This document shows, piece after piece, positions 12,838 through 25,597 of a stretch of 29,408 bases of DNA (its first letter is position 1; the number at the start of each line of letters is the position of its first letter). Made by a program: the position numbers and the translations under genes. The notes under the pieces were generated by a model, which was not told where the DNA came from, did no database searches, and was given only the letters and a program-made list of their open reading frames with translations. This stretch comes from Globomyces pollinis-pini (lineage: Eukaryota > Chytridiomycota > Chytridiomycetes > Rhizophydiales > Globomycetaceae). The DNA lies in NCBI GenBank assembly GCA_025399215.1, contig MU621260.1, positions 8,041 through 37,448 on the forward strand, in the 5' to 3' direction.

Positions 12838-13475
12838 TTACTTTTCATAGTATCCAGGTACACGCCATTGTCCACGTTTACACATTTTTTCCACAGTAGC
12901 ATCAAGAGATGGATGTGCCTTGACGATATCTTCAACCTAAACCATTAGCATGACATTGCTAAAAAATAGAGAGATAAAACATAATCGATAAAAAAGTACT
13001 GATATGAAATAGTAACGTACATTAAGTTCTTCAATTGGACGAGCAGTTTCAATGTGGACCAACAATTCCTTCATCTCCTTTAATTCCACGTTGACTTTTT
13101 CTTCAGTCAATTTGGCAGCAGCAATCTAACAAAGGAATGAGTTTAGAATAAGCAATGTACCTAACAAAATCAATAAAAAATATTGAATACCGCTTTTAGA
13201 CGTTCAGCTTCAATGACTTTAATCTGAGCAGAAACATCATAGACGACAGGTTTATAGGAATCGAGTGATTTCTTTGCTTCTGCCAAAACAGATTGATTCT
13301 TCAAGTTTTTGTAGTTATCAAAATTGATTTTTTGAGCATCCAATTCTCTCAATTCAGTGACGGTCTTGAGAATAGCAGCATGACGACTACGGAAGGAAGT
13401 GATGGCAGCTGCAGTTTCTGGTCGAAGTTTGTTAGCGACTGCTAACCAATCTACTTTCTGAATTTGTTTGGCCAT
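12838..13475 (-). CDS. ATP7: Mitochondrial ATP synthase subunit d
   Basis: Exons 13475-13191, 13125-13021 and 12936-12838 give 162 residues, the usual size of this peripheral-stalk subunit. The N-terminus KVDWLAVANKLRPETAAAIT followed by SFRSRHAAIL is diagnostic for the F-type ATP synthase d chain. The rest is helical (KLTEEKVNVELKEMKELLVH) and ends GQWRVPGYYEK. A longer frame starts at 13529, but it adds a segment the family lacks, so I chose 13475. Its first intron (65 nt) is an exact double of two GT...AG units of 30 and 35 nt; the second is 84 nt and cannot be divided at an AG|GT junction. No TATA box is seen. Confidence 0.9.
13126..13190 (-). other. Two-unit intron concatemer in ATP synthase subunit d
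   Basis: The 65-nt intron consists of unit 1, 13190-13161 (30 nt, ends TTTTGTTAG), and unit 2, 13160-13126 (35 nt, starts GTACATTGC, ends TTTGTTAG). They meet as AG|GT. Removing both joins ERLKA to IAAAKL in frame. Confidence 0.75.
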
Positions 13476-17759: not shown

Positions 17760-19802
17760 ATGAGTAAACCTTTAACGTATTTCATTTGCCTTTATTTTTT
17801 CATGTCTTGTTGTTCTTCAAACCCTTCCTGTTGCCAATTCAATCAAAATGCTCAACCTCTGGCTGGAAAATCAACACAGGATTTACCACTAAATAATCCA
17901 GCTTGCAGCTCTAAAAATAATATCGATCCTCCTTACTATCATGTTGCCATAATAGGTTCCCAAAATTTTCTTATTATAGGTGCTGGTGCTATTGGTTGCG
18001 CAATTGCTAGAGAATTGTCCAAGTTCAATATTCTAACTTTGGTATTAGAAAAATCAGACGATGTTTCCCAAGGTGCTTCTAAATCAAACTCTGGTATTTA
18101 CCCATTCTGACTCATTTTAGGTATTCAATACATATAAGTAACATTCTAAGGTATTTATTGGAAAATCTCATTCAAGGCATCATTCATGGTGGATTCGATG
18201 ACAAACCTGGATCATTGAAAGCAAAAGTTAGTCACAAAGGAAATTTAATGTGGCCTTTGCTAAATGAACAACTTAATTTTGGATTTAAAATGGTAGGATC
18301 CTTTGTATTGGCTTTCAATAGTGAAGATGAACGTATCTTGGAAGAGTTGTTGAAGCGTGGTATCCAGAACGAAGTTGCTGGGTATATTAAGTTTGACTAC
18401 TTTAATTGTTAGCTTGGAAATATGGAGTAGAGAACGTGTTTTGAAAGTGGAACCGCATGTTAATCCAAAAATCACTTCGGCTTTGTATTGTCCTACTGCG
18501 GGAATAGCTTCACCATATGAATATGTTATTGCATTGGCTGAAAATGCTGTGACTAATGGTGTTCATTTTAAATTATCTCATGAAGTAACCGATATTCAGC
18601 AAGTTTCTAACGATACCTCTCAAACGGATATTAACTCATCAACTGGGACCCATTTTTTGGTAAGAACTCTGAAAGATAGCGATTCTTTTAGGGCTAAAAT
18701 TGTTATTAATGCAGCTGGTATGAGCGTAGAGGCTTTTTATCACTAGGTTTATTACAATTGATTTTTAATCATTAGGTTTGATGCATCTTGATTTATATCT
18801 AGGTTTAATGGCCGATCGAGTAGCGGCAATGGTTGGTGCCAACGATTTTCACATTACTCCAAGAAAGGGGGAGTACATAATTCTAAATCGAACACAAGGG
18901 AGAATGGTCAGCTCTGTTCTCTTCCCCATCCCTGACAAAAAGGGAAAAGGTATATTAGTCAGTCCAACTTATCATGGGAACCTCTTGTTAGGTCCAACTT
19001 CACGAGGAACTGGTGACTTCAACCTTACCCAACGACAGGTATGTACTGAAATTGAGCTTATGTGTATCATTGCCATCAAAAAATCATGGTTTAACAATTA
19101 TTGACGATTTTCTTAGGTTCTGGAACTAATTATTACATCAGCCAAGAGATCAGTCCCAGATTTTGATCCAAGTGAGGCTATCACATCATACACAGGCTTG
19201 AGATCAAAATGTTCCAGAGGTGATTTTATTATTGAAGAAAGTGTATGTCAAGGGTTCATCAATGTTGCTGGTAAATGATACATATTGTAACGTTGTAAGG
19301 AATTGATTCACCCGGGCTAACCAGCTCACCAGCAGTAGCTGAGTTGGTGAGGGATATTGTGAAAGGATCGATTAAGCGTCTTTATAATATTGAAATGACA
19401 GCAAAAGAGTCTTTCAACCCTTATCGAGCTGCAATTATCATCCCCAAAACAAAGGACTTTGATGGAGAGATAGACCATCCGGACCCTAAAAAGAATATCA
19501 TCTGCCGTTGTGAGCGAGTGACCGAATATGAAATCGTTGACTCAATCCATCGTCCATTAGGAGGTCATAACACTGATTCAATCAAGCGCCGTACTAGAGC
19601 AGGAATGGGTCTATGTCAAGGGAATTTCTGTGAGGGCAGAGTGGCAAAATTAGTCTCACGAGAGCTTGCTATTCCGTTGGATAAAGTGCAGCGACACACT
19701 GCTGGTTCCTCGATATTGCCTCATCGAAGAGTCACTGACAGTGATCGTCAATTATTGGAAGAATTGGCACACTCAAAAACTACCAACTCATCCAAACTAT
19801 AA
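17760..19802 (+). CDS. FAD-dependent oxidoreductase with C-terminal BFD-like [2Fe-2S] domain
   Basis: Seven exons (17760-17955, 17980-18093, 18177-18381, 18413-18717, 18803-19038, 19117-19270, 19300-19802) give 570 residues. After a Cys-rich, partly hydrophobic N-terminus comes a DAO-type FAD domain: HVAIIGAGAIGCAIARELSK (GxGxxG at 66-71), LVLEKSDDVSQGASKSNSG joined to IIHGGFDD, then CPTAGIASPYEY, INAAG joined to LMADRVAAMVG, and GKGILVSPTYHGNLLLGPTS. The C-terminus has a four-cysteine BFD-like cluster site (C472xC474, C509x4C514). The layout is that of bacterial GlpA-like or L-2-hydroxyglutarate oxidase-like enzymes with BFD domains, also known from anaerobic protists. The substrate is unknown; glycerol 3-phosphate or a 2-hydroxyacid is likely. 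Two introns are three-unit concatemers. AATAAA lies at 19810-19815. Confidence 0.85.
17956..17979 (+). other. 24-nt in-frame, stop-free intron
   Basis: GTTCCC...TTATAG is 24 nt, a multiple of three with no stop, so translation could read through it and add eight residues (SQNFLIIG) inside the nucleotide-binding loop. Removal restores AIIGAGAIG, a standard GxGxxG motif, so it is an intron. Confidence 0.75.
18094..18176 (+). other. Three-unit intron concatemer (27+30+26 nt)
   Basis: Units 18094-18120, 18121-18150 and 18151-18176 each begin GTATT and end in AG, and they meet as AG|GT. Removing all three joins SNSG to IIHGGFDD, the continuous motif expected in this family. Keeping unit 2 brings an immediate stop, and keeping unit 3 shifts the frame. 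Confidence 0.75.
18718..18802 (+). other. Three-unit intron concatemer (29+29+27 nt)
   Basis: Units 18718-18746, 18747-18775 and 18776-18802 each run from GT to TAG. The junctions read CACTAG|GTTTAT and CATTAG|GTTTGA, and the true exon starts TCTAG|GTTTAATG. Only removal of all three gives INAAGLMADRVAAMVG. Confidence 0.75.
19039..19116 (+). other. 78-nt intron, not divisible at AG|GT
   Basis: GTATGT at 19039 to TTCTTAG at 19116, with GTTTAAC and TTGAC branch-like sites. Its length is about three units, but it holds no internal AG|GT. Confidence 0.6.
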
Positions 19803-19948: not shown

Positions 19949-22486
19949 TCAGTGTTGACGGGTCATGCTTTGGGGATTGGAGACATTGCTCTTCATTCGG
20001 TAAGTCCAGTTTTCAAAAAATTTGGTCCACGACACACAATCTTCTTCGGTTTGAAATCGGCATTCATACACCTTGTCATCCACGGTGAATTGACGAGTCA
20101 TTGGACCTTTACCAACAATAGAGAACGTTTTAATGTGAGGAAGGTTCCAAAAAATACCATATCCGCATTCACTTGTTGAGCTGGATTCCAAGGAAAGACG
20201 TTTGATCGAGGCAATAAGTACACATTCTGGTGAATTTTGATGTAGCGCAACTGGTTGAGCTTCCGCAAAAATGCCTGCCAATCCTCCCAGAGTTTTAATT
20301 GTCACTTCACATCGTTGATCCTTTGTAATTTTTTTGATCTTTGTTTTTTCAGCATTGATAACACTGGAATTATTTGATGCTTTTGAATTATTGGTACTTG
20401 AATCGGTAGTAGTGATAGCCTGATAAATTTTCAACAAAAAGGAAGTGCCTAAGTTAAAAATGAGAATATAAAAGACTGCTAAATTTTTGATAATATACTT
20501 TGCAGTGAATCCCAATGAATCGGACACCAAAATTGCCAAACTAAACAATCCAATGATAGTCGTGTTATAAACGGACAATCCAATCATTTTGGTTTCATTG
20601 TAAGTGGACAAGACATTTCTTGTCATCACAGCCAAAATTAAGTTACCAATCAGCACTAGAGAGTTGACCAAAATCAATAAGTTCATAGCTGTTCCTCCCA
20701 AACTACCACTCGCACAAGTCCAATAGAATTGAGTTTGAGAAATTTGCTTGATATACGGACGAGGTGCATCAAATACATTCCAAATTACACAAATGATGAT
20801 ACTGGGTAACGTAATCAATAATGCAGTCAAATACAATTTGAAGTCTGTTAATTTTAATGCAGCACGAGGCAAAAAGAAAATTCTATAAATTCTAAGGGTT
20901 TTGGCAAACAGTAGTCCATAGTACAAAGAGAATGTAATGGGAATGACAATACTATCAATCGTACACTTCAATTGAGATGGTTTATCGATCATCACCAGGA
21001 ATTGAAAATTGACCAGTAAAATCGCCAATTGCATTCCATAACCAATTAAGTAACTTGATTTTTTGATTACACCCGATTTCTTGTAAATGATGATGCCAAC
21101 ATAGGAAAGTAATGTTAACGCAAATCCCAAAGCAGCGCATATAATAGATAGAATACCAGCACCGCCAGATAATTCAGCATAAACAGCAACATCGTTAGGG
21201 TCAATACCATCTTTGGGTTGAACAGTGGATCCACCCGGATAAACGATTGGGAAATTAGGGTCTAATACCTTTTTACCATTATTCCAACCTCCGACAATTT
21301 GAACCTTTTGATTGGATAGATAGTTGTAAACGCTGAAATCACCAGATCGGTCACCATTTTCATCGGCACGGACGTATCCACTTGGAGTGGCAATATCTGG
21401 AAAAGTAAAAGATTCTGGGACTTTCATGTATTCATTTAATTTTCCTGTTGCTAAATCATTTACAGTCCAATCGGGGTTAGATTTTAAAAGAGCATCAAAA
21501 CCATTCAAAAATAAATCGACGCAGGTAGCATAAAAGTAAATGTATGATTTTGGAGGTTCAACTGACGATAAACTAGCATTGATAAAAGTAGTCTGTAATC
21601 GATTGTTTCTCCAATATTCAGCAAACGGTTCGGCTTCAGGTCCTTGTTTTTCAGTTGGATAGAAAGATAGCATTCCATTATAGAGATCAGAATCATCTGG
21701 AAACATAGTTGGTAAATCTATTAACGCATCAGGACCCATCCAAACATAGTCTTTTCCAAATATACCCATGCTTCTCGCATACTTGAGTACAACCATAAAT
21801 TCATTCACATATCCACAATAGAAAATGATTCGAGCTCCTGATTCTCGAAGAATATGCACGGCAGCATCGGCTTGATGTTCAGTAGTTTCCATCTCAATAT
21901 TCACTTTTGCCAAGATTTCAACGGAATTCTCTCTTGCTAACGTTGAAAGAAAGTTGGCTAGTCCACCACCATAATCTTCATTTGTGTGAATAATCGCAAT
22001 CTTTTTCCAACCAGAAGCGACAACATACCCCATCATAGCCGCAGCTTGAGATGCATCGGTAGGAATCACACGAAAAAAATTTGGATACTGATTTTTATCA
22101 GAAAGGGATGGGTTGGTAGATGACCCGCAACATTGAGGAATATTGTAGTTTTGTAATACCAATGAAGTTAATATGGATAAAGAACTCCAACCAGATCCTA
22201 TCACCGCTACAACACCTTCTTTTTGAAACTCAAGAGCGTTTACAATGTTGAGATCCCGAGCAAGTTCATTGTTCAACAGTACAGGTTCCAGGGTAGTATC
22301 GTCTCCCAACAAGTCAGAGTTTTCATTTAATTGCTTGATACGTAAATAAACAGCTTCCACTCCTTCCAATAAAATCATATCGTCAGGAACGTATCCGATA
22401 CTGATACCAATCTTGATACGATTTGAACCGTTAGGAGTTAAAGCTGAGCATAAGCACGATAGTAAACTGACGATCTTGTAACGCAT
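19949..22486 (-). CDS. Class C (GABA-B-like) G-protein-coupled receptor with C-terminal PH-like domain
   Basis: An intronless gene of 845 residues. Residues 1-20 look like a signal peptide. About 24-400 form a type I periplasmic-binding (ANF receptor) domain, with GVVAVIGSGWSSLS, IPQCCGSSTNPSLSD, PNFFRVIPTDASQAAAM and WKKIAIIHTNEDYG. Seven hydrophobic helices follow between about 435 and 690, from GILSIICAALGFALTLLSYV to FYILIFNLGTSFLLKIYQAI, in the class C layout. A Ser/Asn-rich linker leads to about 125 residues that look like a PH or PH-like domain, ending TEEDCVSWTKFFENW, a typical last helix. The ligand is unknown; amino acids or GABA are usual for the family. A TATAATAA box lies at 22525-22532. 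Class C receptors occur in animals, amoebozoans and some early-diverging fungi. Confidence 0.9.
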   Translation of the reverse strand: MRYKIVSLLSCLCSALTPNGSNRIKIGISIGYVPDDMILLEGVEAVYLRIKQLNENSDLLGDDTTLEPVLLNNELARDLNIVNALEFQKEGVVAVIGSGWSSLSILTSLVLQNYNIPQCCGSSTNPSLSDKNQYPNFFRVIPTDASQAAAMMGYVVASGWKKIAIIHTNEDYGGGLANFLSTLARENSVEILAKVNIEMETTEHQADAAVHILRESGARIIFYCGYVNEFMVVLKYARSMGIFGKDYVWMGPDALIDLPTMFPDDSDLYNGMLSFYPTEKQGPEAEPFAEYWRNNRLQTTFINASLSSVEPPKSYIYFYATCVDLFLNGFDALLKSNPDWTVNDLATGKLNEYMKVPESFTFPDIATPSGYVRADENGDRSGDFSVYNYLSNQKVQIVGGWNNGKKVLDPNFPIVYPGGSTVQPKDGIDPNDVAVYAELSGGAGILSIICAALGFALTLLSYVGIIIYKKSGVIKKSSYLIGYGMQLAILLVNFQFLVMIDKPSQLKCTIDSIVIPITFSLYYGLLFAKTLRIYRIFFLPRAALKLTDFKLYLTALLITLPSIIICVIWNVFDAPRPYIKQISQTQFYWTCASGSLGGTAMNLLILVNSLVLIGNLILAVMTRNVLSTYNETKMIGLSVYNTTIIGLFSLAILVSDSLGFTAKYIIKNLAVFYILIFNLGTSFLLKIYQAITTTDSSTNNSKASNNSSVINAEKTKIKKITKDQRCEVTIKTLGGLAGIFAEAQPVALHQNSPECVLIASIKRLSLESSSTSECGYGIFWNLPHIKTFSIVGKGPMTRQFTVDDKVYECRFQTEEDCVSWTKFFENWTYRMKSNVSNPQSMTRQH

Positions 22487-22892: not shown

Positions 22893-25597
22893 TCAATAAT
22901 TTTCTTTAGCTTCTGCAGCCAATACTTCATTTTCTTTACGAATAATTCCAAGATGTAAAATTCGATCTCCAGCCATAGCAACGGGATTGGAAGATCGACC
23001 AATATTCTAAATTTAACTTCACTAGATTATTACCACACCAGTATTTGGACAATAAATTTCGTCAACAATGTTACCAAAGATATTCTTGATACGTGCAATC
23101 AATTGTCCTTTTTTGACTATAGTGTTGACTTGTGGGTATCTATGATAAGTAAACATTGTAATTACACTTCCAAAACACCACCAGTTTTAGTATAGATCCA
23201 AAATCCCCTTGAACAGACAATCGTTAGGGGGACACCGGCAGTGAGTTCATCCATATCAGATTTGAACATAGTCAAGTAGTTTAGAATACGCATTACACCT
23301 TGATAAGACCATTGCACGAACTGATTTTGGAATAATTGGGGGTTACCGATTTCCACAGTAATGGCTTTTATACCAATAGAAGCACATGCAGATCGCAAAG
23401 TTCCTAACAGGTTATTTTTCGAACCTTACCGTCTTGACCACTATTATGAAGGATAACTTGAGGCTGTTGAAGTTTAGCAAATACAGCCGAAATAGGATCA
23501 TTCATATCTGCACGAACATAGTACGAATTCACCCTTCCAAACGAAGCTGTATGCAAATCAATCAAATAATTCAACTAGGTTTTAGAATACAGTTAAAGTT
23601 ATACTTGTTTAATGATTTTTGTGAAAATGTTGTGATTGTAAATTTGTGAAGCTGTTCCATTGGCATTTCCTGGGAAATATCGATTCAAGTCCTTTCCATC
23701 CGAGAATTCACGGGCAAATGATAAGTAACCAGGCACATTCACACAAGGCACTGCTACAACCGTACCTTTCAACCGGGATACATCTATATCGGAAATAACT
23801 CGGTGGATGCAAGGAACACCATTCAGCTCATTTCCGTGAACAACCGCTGTTATACCCACCACTGGTCTATGAAAATAAAAGATTGTCGTTTGTTTACCCA
23901 GGTTGAACACCTCGCGCAATAATGACTGGAACTTTGATCCACTCAGATAGCCCTTGTTTGACCATGTTGATCCATGCAGTACTGATTTGACCGGCCGGGA
24001 ACTCTTCAATCACTAAATGATCTCTGATAACAGGTGGAGGAACATCACTTTCATTTCTATATCTGGCACTGAATACTGGTGGCTTATATTTGTGAGCGGA
24101 TTCCCAATATTTGGTGATTAAATGTGTGTTCCCCGATTGATCATTGATTGTTTTCGTCAGTTCGACCAATGAATCTCGCCTGGTGAGTTCCTGCGGAGGA
24201 ACGTTCCACATTGGCTGGTCATCAAAAACAATGATGGACCCTTTCCTAGATTTTGATTTATCAATTGTATCAGTATGAAGTATAGGAGGTGCAAACACAC
24301 CACTTTCTGCTGTCTTTATAGGCTTTAATAAATGGACTTTTATCAATAAAATTGTTGCCTCGATCTCCTCTAAAATAGGTTAATAATATCATAATATTCA
24401 TGCGGTAAGTGTTATAGATGGAAATAAATTAAAAGTTGCTTCTCTCGTGTGCACTCTCATATTAGTTTACTAATAAGTATCATATGATAGTTAATTTGAT
24501 CCTTGAATTTGAGGAAACAGATTGAGAACAGGGGTATTGAAAAAAATATCAATGACATACCATCCAAAGCTTCAATTCCGATTTGATTATCAGTTTCTAA
24601 CGGTGCAGGTTTCAGAATGGGTGTCATATGTAAATCCAAGTTACCAACATGAGGTCGACGACAAATCATTGTCGAATCTTCCTCCAAGATTTGCTTCTTT
24701 GACCCATCAACTGATACTCTAATATTTCCTTTGATAATTAATTGTAAATTTTAAACCTGAAAGAATTAAACCAGTATAGTATTACCTAGCAATTAACTTG
24801 GAAGGTACTCACCTAGGGTTAAATGAATTTTAACTACCTAAATGTTAACAAGGAAAAATCCACCTATTCATTAAAAAAATAAAAGATGGAACCTTTAATG
24901 ACATATAAAACAGTAATATGTGTGGTGGAAGGATCAGCCAGATCAGCCAAATTGTGATTGGAGCAAATAGTTTCCACGCTCATAGTAACCTGATAAAAAT
25001 AAGCTATAAAATAATTCACCTTTGTTTTGTTTTTGTGTGCCATTAAACCAAGGAGGTGAATGGGGGGACCTGGAGCAACATTCGCGTGTGTATTCCAATG
25101 ACCCTGATACTGGTAAGGTACCCATGGTTTCAATTGAATTGGGATTTGATTATCGTGATGAAATAAGTTTAATCTGCCTGTGGGTAATTCGTCTGATAAG
25201 AGCACGACGTATTGGTCATAATCAGGAAATAAGGCAAGATTAGTAGAAGTAGAAATAGTAGATTTTGAAAGTTTCCACAAGAAAGGATCATTCAAAGGAT
25301 TGGCTTCAGCAGGTTCTATTTGTGAGATAAATGGAGCATCATACCAATACAAATAAGGGTAGTTTCACCCAAACCATTCTTCCATTTAGAGGTAGAGTAT
25401 TGACTTTTTGGCAAGATGATAAAGTTATGCTGTGGGTTGCTTAAATCATCGAAGAGAGTGAAGTTATTTAGAGATGATTGAGATAGTAGAGGAGAGGTAA
25501 GGGAATGCGACAGATCAGGGTCTTTAACAGAATTATTAGGATTTCCGGTATTAGAATTTTTGGAAGGAATATTGAGTGGTTCAGTAGATTTGTCCAT
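22893..25597 (-). CDS. HutD domain fused to aspartoacylase/succinylglutamate desuccinylase-type (M14) domain
   Basis: Ten exons join in one frame to 716 residues. A Ser/Asn-rich N-terminus precedes a HutD-like cupin: [10 protein letters not shown] at 71-80 matches the HutD WKNGGGxT motif, followed by [24 protein letters not shown] and a second barrel half ([18 protein letters not shown]). The C-terminal half is a zinc deacylase: VVHGNELNG (H439, E442), DLNRYFPG (R491), DLHTASFGR (H524) and [11 protein letters not shown] with the catalytic Glu. HutD goes with histidine degradation in bacteria, and AstE/AspA enzymes remove acyl groups from acyl-amino acids, so a role with N-acyl or N-formyl glutamate is a reasonable guess. 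Introns are 29, 30, 164 (six units), 191, 31, 30, 26, 26 and 27 nt. The join between halves depends on the 191-nt intron; two separate genes are less likely because all phases agree. Confidence 0.8.
24370..24560 (-). other. 191-nt intron joining the HutD and deacylase halves
   Basis: GTATGT at 24560 to CTATTTTAG at 24370, with TTATTAACC near the end. It holds no internal AG|GT. It is the longest intron here and lies where the two domains meet. Confidence 0.6.
24729..24892 (-). other. Six-unit intron concatemer (29+26+25+27+29+28 nt)
   Basis: On the minus strand the units are 24892-24864, 24863-24838, 24837-24813, 24812-24786, 24785-24757 and 24756-24729. Each starts GT, ends AG and has a TTAAC or TTAAT site about 7-12 nt before its AG. 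The five inner boundaries all read AG|GT (ACCT on the plus strand). Removing the whole 164 nt joins TVLYVIK-G to NIRVSVDG in frame, completing a beta hairpin of the cupin. The units are not alike in sequence beyond their ends and branch-like site. Confidence 0.78.

Follow-up and report, generated by a model that had tools for sequence, protein, structure and literature searches.

In the chytrid Globomyces pollinis-pini, a 164-nt stretch within a HutD/AspA fusion gene consists of six complete, ultrashort intron-like units that follow one another head to tail. Our analysis suggests, with a probability of roughly two in three (0.68), that this array of ordinary-intron-like units, an arrangement that is found again at around sixty sites or more across the genome, is removed unit by unit by the major spliceosome across zero-length exons. 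An earlier note on this DNA had been limited to the one array, while arrays in fact recur both in the window (the whole stretch of 29,408 bases that was analysed) and throughout the genome. Of its overall interpretation, the single intervening stretch made of intron-sized units stands, whereas a length limit of the spliceosome does not, and repeated insertion is not supported.

A six-unit array in a HutD/AspA gene

On the minus strand, positions 24892 to 24729 tile exactly into six GT...AG units (Table 1; each unit starts at the higher of its two coordinates), which meet at five inner AG/GT junctions, the solidus marking the boundary here and below. The exact split, with a GT, a TTAAY and an AG in each unit, had been described in the earlier note without a strand and is confirmed from the sequence. 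All six units carry TTAAY, with the Y lying 5-12 nt from the 3' end, compared to 67 of 214 predicted ordinary introns. On the minus strand of the window, AGGT is present 92 times, or about once per 320 bases, which agrees with the previous estimate of once per several hundred bases. The longest AGGT chain at 22-34-nt spacing in the window has six members, namely the exon-intron junction AAAG/GT and the five junctions between units. By comparison, when the whole window was shuffled 400 times with dinucleotides preserved and both strands were scanned, no chain went beyond four members, a length reached 7 times; with a chain of five or six in none of the 400, the claim that the even spacing is not due to chance holds. 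An initial fixed pattern (GTAAGTTTTTTAAC...AG) yielded no matches, Tandem Repeats Finder gave no entry at 24729-24892, and Rfam no match within the window.

When joined, the exons flanking the array encode a HutD domain followed by a succinylglutamate desuccinylase/aspartoacylase (AspA) domain, as judged from Pfam labels and homolog names, and hence a fusion protein. We took 120 of 148 HutD homologs and, after omission of the Globomyces record, aligned 119, of which 116 cover the array junction (VIK/GNI); all 116 are without an extra residue and without a gap within six residues of it. Besides the array, the gene contains further introns of 26-31 nt as well as a longer one of 191 nt (Table 1). 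At the junctions of the latter and of the 30-nt intron, a mere 2 and 1 of the 119 rows, respectively, offer coverage, which is too few to be informative. The public model of this gene (P0001) starts only 3' of the array. Outside that model, in the HutD exon at ~25335-25365 on the minus strand, the frame is off by one relative to the homologs, reflecting either an assembly error or damage to the gene.

Table 1. Arrays, introns and exons discussed in the text (window coordinates; join sites given for arrays elsewhere in the genome)
Feature	Position	Strand	Description	Basis
Array unit 1	24864..24892	-	29 nt, GTTCCA...TTTAATGAATAG; full unit GTTCCATCTTTTATTTTTTTAATGAATAG	sequence, TTAAY
Array unit 2	24838..24863	-	26 nt, GTGGAT...TTAACATTTAG; full unit GTGGATTTTTCCTTGTTAACATTTAG	sequence, TTAAY
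Array unit 3	24813..24837	-	25 nt, GTAGTT...TTAACCCTAG; full unit GTAGTTAAAATTCATTTAACCCTAG	sequence, TTAAY
Array unit 4	24786..24812	-	27 nt, GTGAGT...TTAATTGCTAG; full unit GTGAGTACCTTCCAAGTTAATTGCTAG	sequence, TTAAY
Array unit 5	24757..24785	-	29 nt, GTAATA...TTAATTCTTTCAG; full unit GTAATACTATACTGGTTTAATTCTTTCAG	sequence, TTAAY
Array unit 6	24729..24756	-	28 nt, GTTTAA...TTAATTATCAAAG; full unit GTTTAAAATTTACAATTAATTATCAAAG	sequence, TTAAY
Exon upstream of array	24893..24989	-	end ...VLYVIK/G	translation, homolog alignment
Exon downstream of array	24561..24728	-	start GNIRVSVDG...	translation, homolog alignment
191-nt intron, HutD/AspA gene	24560..24370	-	without inner AGGT	gene reconstruction; also removed in public model P0001
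30-nt intron, HutD/AspA gene	24990..25019	-	in frame, stop-free	sequence; its residues missing from P0002 and P0003 (by eye)
Three-unit array, FAD oxidoreductase gene	18094..18176	+	27+30+26 nt	sequence, protein continuity
Three-unit array, FAD oxidoreductase gene	18718..18802	+	29+29+27 nt	sequence, protein continuity
78-nt intron, FAD oxidoreductase gene	19039..19116	+	non-array	P0241 RQV/LELIITSAK, relative P0242 RQVLQMIISSA
Candidate two-unit array, gene without homology support	13126..13190	-	30+35 nt	sequence
CHMP3/VPS24 array			ten units, 289 nt, join LAKE/VVNSKK	protein continuity
CLK/HIPK-like kinase array			five units, 138 nt, join LHDL/GLIHTDLKPEN	protein continuity
WD40 protein array			four units, 120 nt, join DDCIQ/IWDTR	protein continuity

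Arrays in the window and across the genome

The window harbours two further arrays of three units each, both in an FAD oxidoreductase gene, and a candidate array of two units. Full removal of both three-unit arrays, together with the 78-nt intron of the same gene, agrees with the public model P0241 and with a relative, P0242. At 17956-17979 on the plus strand, P0241 also lacks a 24-nt stretch (GTTCCC...TATAG) that is in frame and stop-free and would be among the shorter introns here. The ORF of 845 aa at 19949-22486 on the minus strand has no intron and, with ANF_receptor and 7tm_3, is of a class C G-protein-coupled receptor type, here in a chytrid.

Genome-wide, pairs of TAGGT numbered 180, 728, 160 and 312 at spacings of 15-23, 25-33, 40-48 and 53-61 nt, respectively; the counts thus peak at one unit length and again at two. 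Triples of TAGGT were found 169 times at unit spacing vs. 3 times at shifted spacing. The first 100 of these 169 merge into 62 places, so that at least 62 places exist among the matches listed, although a few may be coding repeats, as is the case for some AGGT triples of a looser pattern. When the 12 permutations of AGGT were compared over 217 kb, AGGT itself had the highest excess at 25-32 nt (59 pairs vs. 27.8 expected, a ratio of 2.12), with ratios of 0.95 to 1.56 for the other 11. A reversed-pattern control went against the arrays for the loose patterns (846 vs. 2239 and 728 vs. 1777) and in their favour for the strict TAGGT triple (169 vs. 49, and 3 vs. 60 at shifted spacing). Since TGGA is the commonest AGGT permutation here, we judged this control unfair and adopted shifted spacings in its place. 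As a background to such pattern counts, regularly spaced AGGT or TAGGT was also seen in short repeats that are not intron-like (L018 and L019 at C2:114783-114855, and C6:100886) and in a short repeat at C66:11020. In a 242-kb sample, 7 of the 50 predicted introns of at least 41 nt tile into units (0.8 on average in shuffles) and 43 do not. As most do not tile, arrays account for just part of the longer introns. Read from the spacing of sequence motifs, the genome-wide architecture is real.

Six arrays of 3 to 10 units each (the window array, those in the CHMP3, kinase and WD40 genes and the two in the FAD oxidoreductase gene) were verified by protein continuity. In printed alignments to solved structures, the CHMP3, kinase, WD40 and FAD joins are unbroken, and the CHMP3 join is continuous in all 119 homologs aligned (from 120 of 484 found). 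Were a single unit retained, a frameshift or an additional stop would result in 29 of 31 cases in these six arrays. That each of them is absent as a whole from the mature message finds good support in homology. Public annotation copes unevenly with such loci: among the models of three array-bearing genes, P0241 runs through its arrays, whereas P0001 and the CHMP3 model P0164 are cut off at theirs, the latter beginning inside unit seven and translating the rest of that unit plus unit eight.

Array units compared with ordinary introns

For a comparison set, 58 AGGT chains were formed from those of the 846 matches that were listed first, reaching from C1 into C12. Nineteen of them had at least three units; 15 were kept (AT 0.67-0.79), 4 with coding-like repeats were dropped (AT 0.44-0.57), and the three arrays of the window were added, giving 18 arrays with 79 units. 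A chain ends where AGGT ends, which leaves CHMP3 unit ten and WD40 unit four outside this set. A stricter chain filter that requires branch sites retained 25 of the 58 and was left out of the branch-site count. Ordinary introns came from a gene finder that treated all lengths from 16 to 600 nt alike and did not favour AGGT; over 242 kb, its predictions comprised 269 introns, of which 190 measured 25-32 nt. Its models were wrong at the window array, at the 24-nt intron at 17956-17979 and in the exons next to the 78-nt intron, so that its long introns can be trusted only in rough terms.

By these measures the units look like ordinary introns of this genome. The 79 units average 28.4 nt and the 214 predicted introns of 22-36 nt average 28.7 nt (p = 0.50), which upholds the statement of the earlier note that the two sizes are equal. 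A branch-like YTRAY site is present in 58% of the units (15% when shuffled) and in 55% of the 214 ordinary introns (16% when shuffled), the latter count being possibly raised by the finder's acceptor profile, which spans the last 12 nt. With regard to spliceosome type, U2 snRNA was found in the genome (135 bits, above the family cut-off); a U12 search gave no match, and neither did it in 14 control genomes. The window units thus combine GT...AG ends and TTAAY (6 of 6), a U2 snRNA in the genome and absence from the product by homology, as expected of U2-type introns.

On the other hand, array donors are relaxed. An A at +3 is found in 47 of the 79 units vs. 188 of 226 single introns under a flat donor model (p = 4e-5), and donors score about -0.5 in the six verified arrays vs. 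2.4 in ordinary introns, a set whose finder preferentially picks good donors. An exonic AG was not found to make up for weak array donors: among ordinary introns, A at +3 occurs in 52 of 63 that follow AG and in 136 of 163 that follow other dinucleotides. Besides, AGGT was the criterion of the array search, which makes its retention in arrays partly a matter of ascertainment.

Origin of the units

Arrays may grow by tandem copying of a unit at AG/GT boundaries: the copied unit would be a self-contained intron that leaves the protein unchanged, and the copies would then diverge while keeping their splice signals. The clearest case is C12:42085, which holds an identical pair of adjoining units besides three close copies. 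For a systematic comparison, we scored 188 within-array pairs from 35 arrays, comprising the above 18 and 17 of 38 two-unit chains chosen by eye as intron-like (the 21 left out include C6:100886, with identical 22-nt units). In five of the 35 arrays, some pairs score higher than the 99.5th percentile of pairs between arrays, a threshold that about one of the 188 would be expected to pass by chance; C12:42085 and C8:155153 exceed every between-array score, and the other three are marginal. The remaining 30 bear no trace of duplication, the window array among them. Without C12, the 18 arrays have mean similarity scores of -2.23 within and -2.45 between arrays, so that sharing an array does not make units more alike.

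The main competing view, which we regard as possible though rather unlikely, is that introner-like or mobile introns were inserted repeatedly at the AG/GT of earlier introns. Such insertion would produce exactly the observed geometry and would accommodate units that are unrelated in sequence within most arrays, but it sits poorly with the low similarity between arrays, with the tandem copies of an array's own unit in some of them, and with the window array having no second copy in a genome-wide whole-array search, which skips very common words. The earlier note had proposed repeated insertion into AG/GT for the window array; this gains no support there, with no second array copy found and the units no more alike than those of different arrays. 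As far as unit similarity can reveal, neither insertion nor duplication has left a trace in the window array. In those other arrays whose origin can be recognised, it is by the same measure one of tandem duplication. Both the alike and the unrelated units would be accounted for by copying in tandem and later divergence constrained by splicing. A minisatellite nature was rejected for most arrays, given units that are unrelated in sequence and the missing Tandem Repeats Finder entry at the window array.

Removal of the arrays

For stepwise removal by the major spliceosome, each unit would be recognised by intron definition, and the AG/GT junctions would act as zero-length exons between units. 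Once a unit is out, the intact donor or acceptor of its neighbour would be left at the exon edge, which would permit removal in any order and, at times, of two neighbours together. The weak array donors imply that the spliceosome may skip some units or take out two at a time. The possibility of recursive splicing raised earlier remains sound, each junction being able to regenerate splice sites in the course of stepwise removal. In contrast, the accompanying idea that this spliceosome cannot handle introns above about 40 nt is refuted by the 191-nt intron of the same gene, which lacks an inner AGGT, and by the 78-nt intron of the neighbouring gene.

These same two non-array introns indicate that longer introns are coped with here, and together with the relaxed donors they lend some weight to one-step removal, in which the first donor and the last acceptor would delimit one intron of 164 nt, with the inner units as leftovers of past duplication or insertion. 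We nevertheless find this account doubtful. Outer donors are not stronger than inner ones (mean scores of -0.47 and -0.50, respectively, across the six verified arrays with their 25 inner donors), and in the window array four of five inner donors outscore the outer one. Acceptors carry a T at -3 in 2 of 6 outer vs. 19 of 25 inner cases, the opposite of what one-step use would favour. Branch-like sites, which only the last unit would need, are present in 29 of 54 non-last units (C12 array left out; p ~1e-10 vs. shuffled) and in 118 of 214 ordinary introns, and the agreement of unit lengths with those of ordinary introns argues in the same direction.

With AG and GT flanking every inner unit, one could also read these units as alternative micro-exons between ordinary introns; this is very improbable in view of the frame breaks and stops that inclusion of a unit would bring about in nearly all cases, and of the junctions themselves, where no covering homolog of HutD (116 of 116) or CHMP3 (119 of 119) has additional residues. 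Accidental even spacing of AG/GT in a long AT-rich intron, for all that AG and GT are common dinucleotides, has a negligible probability and is refuted by the shuffled windows and by the genome-wide spacing excess with its second peak at two units.

Relation to known systems

Such arrays were not found described in the open-licence literature on introns and splicing, as far as titles and abstract starts among the matches listed indicate. The closest known systems are ratchet points and stwintrons. Drosophila ratchet points (PMC8605326), like the arrays, juxtapose AG/GT inside one intervening stretch and regenerate the donor stepwise. However, that paper describes them as abundant in long introns and as requiring, at the ratchet point, a cryptic exon, for which there is no room in Globomyces, where the next AG/GT follows after 25-32 nt, as many as ten units succeed one another and the window array measures 164 nt in all. 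Stwintrons (PMC5639578, PMC7138796, PMC8469720) share with the arrays their occurrence in fungi and their composition of several U2-type introns, and are removed by consecutive reactions. In a stwintron, though, the inner intron interrupts a splice motif of the outer one, whereas Globomyces units are complete and adjacent and number 2 to 10. No such nesting is present in the window array, each unit having its own uninterrupted GT, TTAAY and AG.

Other systems share single features with the arrays. In the work on dual-specific splice sites (PMC10809524), AGGT is usable as a 5' or 3' site and occurs in a tandem array in polyubiquitin; the repeats there are coding ubiquitin monomers, while Globomyces units are non-coding and cannot be part of the message. 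The ultrashort introns of Paramecium and Nyctotherus (PMC5014332) are, at ~25 nt, similar in size to Globomyces units, yet the start of that abstract does not mention arrays. Tandem genomic duplication has been described as making a new intron in one potato gene, with the term AGGT present (PMC4974935); in Globomyces, by comparison, a complete intron unit has apparently been copied beside itself. An introner paper (PMC9860276) contains one reference to stwintrons and does not use the word tandem. The many similar copies that characterise introners were not observed for the window array as a whole, and unit similarity between arrays is low.

Implications

Taken further, the data can be framed as poly-introns, a genome-wide class in Globomyces in which up to ten ultrashort introns, separated by zero-length exons, would be spliced singly by intron definition and lengthen through self-copying of units at AG/GT. 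We give this combined proposal even odds. The weak donor scores throughout the arrays and the clarity of duplication in just two of them slightly lower our confidence both in it and in unit-by-unit removal as the best explanation. On the practical side, public gene models are broken at arrays (P0001, P0164), to the point that array sequence is translated in P0164.

If true, poly-introns would mean that introns breed introns at an existing position while the protein remains untouched. Duplication of a whole unit at AG/GT would provide a concrete route of intron gain, with a young example (C12) beside diverged ones (the window and CHMP3 arrays). Besides, the arrays would represent a miniature form of recursive splicing without exon definition and, being many and involving up to ten steps each, could allow the order, the speed and the errors of repeated splicing to be measured in a fungus with a small genome.
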